The translations under genes and the position numbers were made by a program. Shown piece by piece: positions 25,956 through 27,234 of a DNA stretch of 64,000 bases. Below the pieces are notes generated by a model. The model ran no database searches, had not been told where the DNA came from, and worked only from the letters and a program-made list of their open reading frames with translations. Source of the stretch: Kitasatospora acidiphila (GTDB lineage: Bacteria; Actinomycetota; Actinomycetes; Streptomycetales; Streptomycetaceae); the NCBI RefSeq assembly GCF_006636205.1, contig NZ_VIGB01000003.1, positions 6,884,501-6,948,500 of the forward strand, in the 5' to 3' direction. How positions within the stretch are numbered: the first letter of the stretch is position 1; every line of letters starts with the position of its first letter.

Positions 25956-26615
25956 ATGCAACCGACCGATCCGTCGGAACCGGCCGGGGACGGGCCCGCC
26001 GCGCCTGGCCCGCGGCCCCCGTCATCGGCCGCACCGCCGATTCCGCCCAAGCCCTGGTTCGCCCCGCACACGCTGAATGTCGCGGTGACCAGGCGCATCC
26101 TCTGGATCGGGAACGCGGCCTACCCGCTCGCGGGAATCACCCGGGTCAGCGTCACCGTGATCGTGCCGGCCTACGGCGAGGCGATGCGGCGATTCATGAA
26201 GTTCGCGGGGCGCCTCCTGCTCTCCGGGTTCGGCCTCGCCGCGGCGGTGGCCGTCGTGGACCTGGCGAGCCCGAGCCGCTCCAGTGACGACCCGGGACGG
26301 CCCGTAGGGTGGATCATCGGTGTGTCCCTGATCCTGCTGGTGCTCTACTTCCTCCTCGACACGTTGCCGGTTCTGCTCAGACGCACGCTCTACGCACTGG
26401 CCGTCGACACGGCGGGACCGCCGACCGCGCTGGTCGCCTGGAAGAAGGCGGAGCCCGCGTTCGACTTGGCGCAGGCGATCATCGACGCGATCGAGAACCC
26501 GCAGACGGAGTTCCGGCAGTTCATCCACAACACCGTGGTGGACCTGCGGCAGTACCAGTACGGCGACAACGTCAACATCTATGGCGGCCAGGGGAATACG
26601 GGGATCATCAAATGA
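25956..26615 (+). CDS. DUF6232-like membrane protein with C-terminal GD-V-I-GG motif
   Basis: This 219-residue protein has a Pro-rich N-terminus (1-35), a small beta region (RRILWIGNAAYPLAGITRVS) typical of DUF6232-like proteins, and two membrane helices (about 84-105 and 117-141). After them comes a soluble part with an amphipathic helix (AEPAFDLAQAIIDAIENP) and the ending YGDNVNIYGGQGNTGI (202-217). The next gene begins with a very similar stretch. The start ATG 25956 follows a G-rich site, and the stop overlaps the next ATG (ATGA). The role is unknown. The motif pairing recalls amyloid-type signalling pairs, which is inference only. Confidence 0.7.
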   Translation: MQPTDPSEPAGDGPAAPGPRPPSSAAPPIPPKPWFAPHTLNVAVTRRILWIGNAAYPLAGITRVSVTVIVPAYGEAMRRFMKFAGRLLLSGFGLAAAVAVVDLASPSRSSDDPGRPVGWIIGVSLILLVLYFLLDTLPVLLRRTLYALAVDTAGPPTALVAWKKAEPAFDLAQAIIDAIENPQTEFRQFIHNTVVDLRQYQYGDNVNIYGGQGNTGIIK

Positions 26616-26989
26616 GCAGCGACAACCGCGACGACGGCCCGCGCGTCCACTACGGCGACCAGGTCAGCATCCACGGTGGCAGCAAGCACATCGGCATCCA
26701 GCACAACCACGGGCGGGGCGGCGATGAGGGGATGCCGCCCGAGATCGCTGCCATGTTCGCCCAACTCGCCACCCTGGTCACCCAGCTGGCCGCCGACTCC
26801 CGGGTCGGCGACGAGGACCGGCAGAGCCTGACCGAGACCCTGCCCGTACTCAGCCAGCCCGCCAGGGCCGAGCGCCGCCACTGGCGCAACACCCTCTACC
26901 TGTTGACCAACCTGGCCCGCGACATCGGCGATGCCGCCGCTCCCATGCTGGGCCTGGCCACCCAGCTGATCTCACTGATCCGCGCCTGA
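26612..26989 (+). CDS. Small soluble partner of the DUF6232-like protein
   Basis: The 125-residue protein starts at ATG 26612, overlapping the previous stop, so translation is coupled. Residues 14-29 read YGDQVSIHGGSKHIGI, matching the C-terminal motif of the upstream protein at nine of sixteen positions. A His/Gly-rich hinge follows. The remainder is helical (PPEIAAMFAQLATLVTQLAA; WRNTLYLLTNLARDIGDAAA) and could form a small bundle. I do not recognise an enzyme domain. It probably acts with the membrane protein. Confidence 0.65.
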   Translation: MSSDNRDDGPRVHYGDQVSIHGGSKHIGIQHNHGRGGDEGMPPEIAAMFAQLATLVTQLAADSRVGDEDRQSLTETLPVLSQPARAERRHWRNTLYLLTNLARDIGDAAAPMLGLATQLISLIRA

Positions 26990-27014: not shown

Positions 27015-27125
27015 CCGCTGCGCTCCAGTGCCGGCGCCCGTGTGCTCCAGCCCCAGTGCCGGCTCCAGTGCCAGTGCCGGCGCCGGCGCCGGCGCCAGCG
27101 CCCGTGCCTGGCTCCAGCGCCAGTA
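27015..27125. repeat. Low-complexity CCAGTGCCGGC / CCGGCG repeat
   Basis: Short imperfect units such as CTCCAGTGCCGG and GCGCCGGC recur throughout the 250-base space after the two-gene unit. I see no gene in it. Confidence 0.6.
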
Positions 27126-27152
27126 CGAGTCTGCAAGGCGTTGCCAAACGCC

Positions 27153-27182
27153 GGCGGGGCGGGCCCGAAGGCCCGCCCCGCC
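27153..27182. terminator. Hairpin terminator with CGAA tetraloop
   Basis: Perfect 13-base arms (27153-27165 and 27170-27182) enclose the loop CGAA. It lies between the DUF6232-like unit and the convergent secreted-protein gene. Confidence 0.75.
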
Positions 27183-27234
27183 GTTGTCAGTTGTGGACCG
27201 GTAGCGGCCGGCTAGCGGCCGCTACCAAGCCGGG

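Follow-up and report, generated by a model that had tools for sequence, protein, structure and literature searches.

Why does the end of a membrane protein resemble the beginning of the small soluble protein encoded by the next gene? The question is raised by two overlapping genes, here called A and B, in a stretch of 64,000 nucleotides from Kitasatospora acidiphila; this whole stretch is what we call the window, and its positions are used for the following features.

25956–26615, forward strand: gene A, a DUF6232 membrane protein with a C-terminal motif (219 aa; Pfam match)
26070–26168, forward strand: residues 39–71 of A, the first four strands of a probable split PH/PTB-like fold (AlphaFold2, VIA-align)
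26172–26375, forward strand: residues 73–140 of A, a predicted transmembrane hairpin inserted in the PH-like fold (model, positive-inside rule)
26388–26528, forward strand: residues 145–191 of A, strands and a helix that probably complete the PH-like fold (AlphaFold2, VIA-align)
26559–26606, forward strand: C-terminal motif of A, YGDNVNIYGGQGNTGI, residues 202–217 (low model confidence, disordered)
26612–26615, forward strand: ATGA overlap of the A stop and the B start, with the same −4 spacing in 74 of 91 pairs
26612–26989, forward strand: gene B, a soluble protein with an N-terminal motif and a helical bundle (125 aa)
26651–26698, forward strand: N-terminal motif of B, YGDQVSIHGGSKHIGI, residues 14–29 (low model confidence, disordered)
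26738–26983, forward strand: residues 43–124 of B, a predicted antiparallel four-helix bundle (AlphaFold2, pLDDT mostly >90)

The initial annotation had counted nine identities in sixteen positions between the C-terminal 16-mer of A, which is followed by IK at the end of the protein, and the segment formed by residues 14–29 of B; a recount gives the same figure, and the ATGA overlap of the genes is present as described. Both motifs have the glycine spacing G-x7-G-x4-G (G203, G211 and G216 in A; G15, G23 and G28 in B), and the local score of the pair lies 7.3 SD over that of shuffled B heads. A codon pattern for GDxVxIxGG occurs three times in the 8.58-Mb genome, namely in A, in B and in one more protein (its reversed-pattern control, 0 times); the third holder reads as a pyruvate phosphate dikinase, and we consider it to be there by chance. 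When the genome was searched with a profile of 72 B proteins, that of the window included, A’s own C-terminus was the second match (E 4.8e-6; 11 of 344 first-look candidates scored), in an alignment that reads through the stop codon of A. The likeness of the two motifs exceeds chance, and it extends beyond this strain.

The product of gene A had been described as DUF6232-like, and this is borne out: it matches the Pfam family DUF6232 (PF19744) with 57.7 bits against a gathering cut-off of 27.4, which makes it a member of the family, and no other Pfam family matches it. In the AlphaFold2 model, four strands are followed by a transmembrane hairpin (residues 73–104 and 116–140), more strands and a helix; the motif is modelled with low confidence. 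In VIA-align, PTB, PH and FERM domains match the soluble part with modest Z values of 6 to 8.3 (a level that the tool calls ‘common’), and the helical-pair matches of the hairpin only add to a mixed result in which the best Z overall is 8.3; Foldseek gave no match to the A model at E 0.001. Since Z for the soluble part is only 6 to 8.3, we regard a split PH/PTB-like fold with a transmembrane hairpin insert as likely but not certain. Among the 80 relatives (of 91 pairs) that have two predicted transmembrane segments, 75 are richer in lysine and arginine in the flanks of the hairpin than in its loop; by the positive-inside rule, this predicted topology puts both ends of A in the cytosol, and its tail would thus face that compartment.

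As regards B, we found no Pfam family over its cut-off and no NCBIfam family, and DUF5955 (PF19380) gave no match. VIA-align recognises a generic, non-diagnostic four-helix bundle (best Z 10.1), Foldseek returned no match to the model at E 0.001, and a scan of genome contigs with the single B sequence gave no relatives. By eye, we also noticed that gene B is followed on its 3′ side by a low-complexity GCC/GGC tract (approximately 27030–27130) and then by a G+C-rich inverted repeat (27150–27185), a possible transcription terminator.

DUF6232 is encoded in at least 90 of 391 order-level genomes, at 99 or more places over the cut-off; since scoring covered a part of the first-look candidates, all counts from our order-, class- and phylum-wide searches are minimum values. 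A B-type gene lies directly 3′ at 93 of these 99 places: 91 were recognised by a filter for a gene of 100–130 aa directly behind the DUF6232 gene, and two more (L084, L090) have a TTG start and motif matches of z 12.2 and 11.8, respectively. At two further places, L058 and L103, A and B are fused via a single motif, DUF6232 and B standing in one frame as if two motif copies had recombined; the L103 fusion appears to be intact, and in that at L058 the frame is apparently lost towards the C-terminus. Behind the DUF6232 genes of L060, L067, L080 and L096 (4 of 99), no B gene was seen: the tails of L080 and L096 are degenerate, and the L060 frame continues beyond a motif-like stretch. A motif in just one of two partners, which the initial annotation had set against its reading, was met once in 99 places, at L067, where an intact motif is orphaned. 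The 101 DUF6232 loci that we found include two below the cut-off (L108, L109), and these stand outside the 91-pair test together with L058, L103, L084, L090, L060, L067, L080 and L096, ten loci in all.

Within the window’s genus, a B homologue is present in only 7 of 70 genomes, its own counted, which makes for a patchy distribution; by eye, a DUF6232-like gene adjoins the homologue at L003–L007 and L009 (L008, from the same genus search, is not counted among these). Three DUF6232 loci from outside the family, L256, L257 and L258, have matched neighbours (z 17.5, 11.5 and 8.5); motif and B are both absent from L254 and L255, the two DUF6232 loci that were read in a further family.

The layout that the initial annotation had proposed, a motif at the C-end of one protein and at the N-end of its neighbour, is strongly supported by the 91 pairs: the mean local score of a tail against its own head is 74.6 and falls to 50.0 when the partners are re-paired (0 of 10,000 permutations). 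Of the 91 pairs, 90 beat their own shuffled heads by 3 SD. The A tails fall into seven classes, including GDxVNxYG, NYGPVVxM, NGPVFxQ, QYGxGxIG..HSGSG, GDVVxGDKxGRD, IGSMRDFYNASG and GDxIxxxG (L032 and L104 were assigned by hand). For 85 of 89 B heads, the best match among the A tails of other operons belongs to the class of their own partner (38.3 expected); the misses are 1 of 55 heads in the GDxVN class, 1 of 17 in GPVV and 2 of 5 in GDxI. In the last of these, just three of five heads pick their own class and the A/B match appears less clear. This 89-head test leaves out L030, in which the B start is truncated (and which was also dropped from the partial correlation, tree and codon tests), and L056, which is alone in its class; the latter’s B scores 92 with its own A and no more than 38 with others. 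The window’s own B ranks 54th of 91 by local score for the tail of the window’s A.

On a tree of the A domain from which the motif had been removed, the seven classes need six changes, which is the minimum; this is a quick tree without bootstrap that leaves 31 of its 87 inner branches open and places the window’s A on a long branch. Taken together, the class match and the six-change tree indicate that most changes of motif type in A were accompanied in B. Even unusual residues agree between A and B in sister operons: both proteins of L098 contain NGPVFNQ, and both of L099 contain NGPVFHQ. With domain distances removed, the partial correlation between the motifs is 0.30 over 90 pairs (0 of 5,000 permutations) and 0.59 outside the main class (0 of 5,000); it is a weak 0.24 in the GPVVxM class (409 of 5,000 as high). 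In the GDxVN class, to which the window’s pair belongs, we found no residue co-variation beyond descent (partial r −0.05; 3,894 of 5,000 as high). Because of these partial correlations, the evidence is for a concerted change of motif type, the likeness within GDxVN requiring no more than shared descent. Co-variation of the two copies, for which the initial annotation had looked to homologous pairs, thus exists at the level of motif types but not at that of residues in this class.

A second membrane family, which was reached via B-like proteins and which we name type II, has the same layout. Its members are longer (476–811 aa, median 599) and occur in at least 27 of 246 class-level genomes, including the window’s own (L182). 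Their separation from DUF6232 rests on length, on transmembrane pattern and on a Pfam scan of three members, none of which had a match above cut-off. The type II tail mirrors the head of the next gene’s product in many different motifs, for example FNGPVAAGTGAHA with FNGPMAAGAGAHA, or NVQNQPGA in both tail and neighbouring head. In a test of 24 pairs, the score with the own partner was 69.8 and that after re-pairing 37.5 (0 of 10,000); the own partner ranked first in only 14 of the 24, and L197 (z 3.4) and L200 (z 2.1–2.4) are weak pairs. The 24 derive from 30 loci after subtraction of the query (L179), of L203 and L208, which were not entered, and of L192, L194 and L205, behind which the filter recognised no B. 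Of these last three, L192 does possess a matched gene (z 5.6), L194 lacks both B and an evident motif, and L205, like L219, sits at a contig end. Additional matched pairs were found at L220, L221 and L234 (z 8.6, 15.6 and 14.8). By hhalign, the helical domain of the type II B proteins is related to that of the B proteins next to DUF6232 (E 8.4e-9, probability 95.7).

Eight core-genome relatives of type II (L222, L223, L226, L227, L228, L230, L231, L232) have no motif, and the filter found no B-like gene behind them; these are perhaps the ancestral, uncoupled form. A motif-free relative also appears to exist on the B side: DUF5955, encoded in at least 117 of the 147 genomes searched, is related to some type II B proteins, one of which (L142) exceeds the DUF5955 cut-off at 32.3 versus 27.1. 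In 12 DUF5955 loci examined among 30 fetched (L149–L178), there was no such motif and no same-strand partner, and the family looks like a solitary relative of some B helical domains. We further observed that the window’s genome has, outside the window, a second matched-motif pair (L182:1444–3641, forward strand) in which a type II protein is followed by a 190-aa B-like protein; the latter has two motif copies with a proline-rich linker between them, and is one of four type II B proteins in which we see two copies by eye.

In five relatives, the second domain of B is exchanged for EAD1 (46–58 bits, cut-off 24.2): L257, L258 and the type II loci L192, L200 and L201. The motif match is clear in four of these five pairs (z 5.6, 8.4, 8.5 and 11.5), L200 being the weak one; for the tails of L192 and L201, a different head from the same subfamily gives an equal or higher score. 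EADs have been proposed to be homotypic coupling adaptors, according to the account given of them in PMC7159879. The five genomes contain 42 EAD1 places, the EAD1-type B proteins counted in. Ten of the 42 EAD1 proteins were scanned: five contain TIR (from four of the five genomes) and one contains AAA over cut-off, and the others have, one each, AAA/STAND just under cut-off, WD40 repeats, EAD2 and DUF6777. EAD1 itself has no Pfam match in the window’s B, which aligns with the five EAD1-type B proteins at an hhalign probability of 0.2, and none in the window’s genome; since the bundle of B is not detectably related to EAD1, the link is, for the window, an analogy of position.

Six of ten window ORFs around the pair encode TetR, HAD hydrolase, PAF-acetylhydrolase, LNT/CN-hydrolase, EamA and amidase proteins and four match nothing; no STAND protein is among these ten (Pfam, E 0.001), and six proteins, including A and B, matched no PADLOC defence family at E 0.1. 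Nor was a recurrent immune neighbour recognised at 18 places (17 relatives and the window; clustered and judged by eye), where the recurrent families were likewise read by eye as ordinary. The pair has common chromosomal neighbours at L236, L248, L251 and L253, which we take to be cytochrome c biogenesis and menaquinone genes.

Our answer to the opening question, which we judge to be probably correct, is that A and B form a membrane-protein/adaptor module in which a private motif is the connector, probably by way of cross-β co-assembly. A would be a membrane-anchored protein, probably of PH/PTB-like fold, with its two ends in the cytosol; B would be a small cytosolic adaptor in which a linker connects a short motif to a helical interaction domain. 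We hypothesize that a trigger, either sensed or scaffolded at the membrane, starts the joining of the A tail and the B head, which would bind each other directly and fold together, most likely into a cross-β assembly that is akin to those of amyloid signalling; the helical domain of B would thereby be clustered at the membrane, and downstream partners would be recruited, the signal running from the membrane to these effectors. Our preference for a cross-β plug derives from the motifs themselves: they are rich in glycine and asparagine, are of low order alone, vary in type and yet match, and are sometimes in tandem, all of which recalls the signalling amyloids described in the relevant parts of PMC7885112 and PMC9815663. 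By this analogy, the module resembles amyloid immune signalling without its usual receptor. We also entertain, more tentatively, a wider proposal: actinomycetes may possess a large and diversifying amyloid signalling that is independent of NLRs, in which different membrane proteins each end in a private motif that templates the matching head of a small adaptor; the helical domain of the adaptor, either a four-helix bundle or EAD1, would then recruit TIR, STAND or other immune effectors.

The motifs might instead build a constitutive, non-amyloid complex, forming a small β element that docks B permanently as a structural subunit. The −4 stop/start overlap in 74 of 91 pairs suggests coupled production, the two fusions tolerate a permanent A–B linkage, and the chromosomal neighbours of the pair recur in several relatives. 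We nevertheless consider such a complex to be rather unlikely: the diversity of the private motifs and their patchy presence (DUF6232 in at least 90 of 391 genomes) look like a diversifying recognition system, and the EAD1 domain of certain B proteins suggests coupling that is inducible; the low model confidence of both motifs on their own is not decisive here. Another alternative is that each protein assembles only with itself (A–A and B–B), the likeness of the motifs reflecting a common origin and co-inheritance with no contact of A with B. This would agree with motif co-variation in the largest class that is not above that of the domains, and with the two motif copies seen by eye in four type II B proteins; a joint change of motif type in A and B is, however, unexpected if the proteins never meet, and so are A–B fusions that retain a single motif, and we rate self-assembly alone as improbable.

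The initial annotation had itself offered a simple duplication at the junction as the alternative. A recent duplication is contradicted by codon usage: the codon at identical motif residues agrees in 0.712 of 1,192 within-operon comparisons and in 0.702 of the 38,457 made between operons of the same class. That a functionless junction duplication or gene conversion keeps the copies alike, as their separation by some 90 bases and the possible recombination between them in the fusions might suggest, is scarcely credible when codon identity at matched residues is barely higher within than between operons and the matched motifs are retained in 90 of 91 pairs tested and in the second membrane family too; an ancient duplication preserved by selection is compatible with the reading that we favour.

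How does this putative module compare with known systems? The initial annotation had likened the pair to bacterial amyloid-type signalling pairs, and the matched motifs at C-end and N-end sustain that part of the comparison. As the BASS1–10 NLR/Bell pairs are presented in the passages of PMC7889193 and PMC9815663 that deal with them, they too have a short motif that stands at the C-terminus of one protein and recurs at the N-terminus of its neighbour, adjacent or overlapping genes, several motif families and occasional tandem copies. The partner domains differ: B is a four-helix bundle protein of 125 aa without NTPase or repeats, and hence not an NLR, and A has a β-rich model with a transmembrane hairpin in place of an α-helical Bell domain. 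Membership is thus not sustained, as there is neither an NLR nor a Bell-type partner; the A/B pair is outside the NLR–Bell amyloid systems, set apart by its partner domains. The core shared by RHIM, PP and BASS3 motifs is given in PMC7885112 as G-(I,V)-Q-(I,V)-G. This core, searched for as G[IV]Q[IV]G, is absent from all 235 tails and heads (0 of 235), and we reject a RHIM reading. Adaptors of the RHIM/death-domain kind, such as RIPK1, join a short assembly motif and a helical interaction domain in one protein; unlike these, A and B have no RHIM core and no kinase, and the resemblance is an analogy only.

The EAD1 conflict systems (Kaur et al. 2020, PMC7159879), as characterised in the sections on EADs, are similar in their small helical coupling domain and in having partners in neighbouring genes, and EAD1 itself is present in five relatives of B; they differ in that the window’s B has no EAD1 and that its coupling to the membrane would proceed via a short motif rather than duplicated EADs. 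The EACC1 two-gene system of the same paper is, in the portion concerned, likewise linked to the membrane, prevalent in actinobacteria and sometimes accompanied by EAD1. There, a domain with a single transmembrane segment is followed by a gene that often encodes a caspase-like protein, whereas in the present pair the first gene encodes a transmembrane hairpin within a probable PH-like fold, and the second a small protein in which no enzymatic domain is recognised. The search of Dyrka et al. 2020 (J Mol Biol) was aimed at adjacent Bell and NLR genes, as reported in the relevant part of PMC9815663. The open literature that we searched makes no mention of DUF6232 or DUF5955, and among the titles and abstracts searched there were no NLR-free matched motif pairs in bacteria; a survey outside the open literature is possible. 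In a passage of a 2021 review (PMC7889193), it was asked whether bacterial signalling amyloids operate in NLR-independent pathways. The A/B pairs supply concrete candidates for such amyloids that are short and easily expressed, and their natural specificity classes, motif-free relatives and two single-motif fusions lend themselves to swap experiments and controls. If these pairs do co-assemble, bacterial amyloid-type signalling would be far wider than the NLR/Bell systems, reaching membrane proteins and EAD adaptors.
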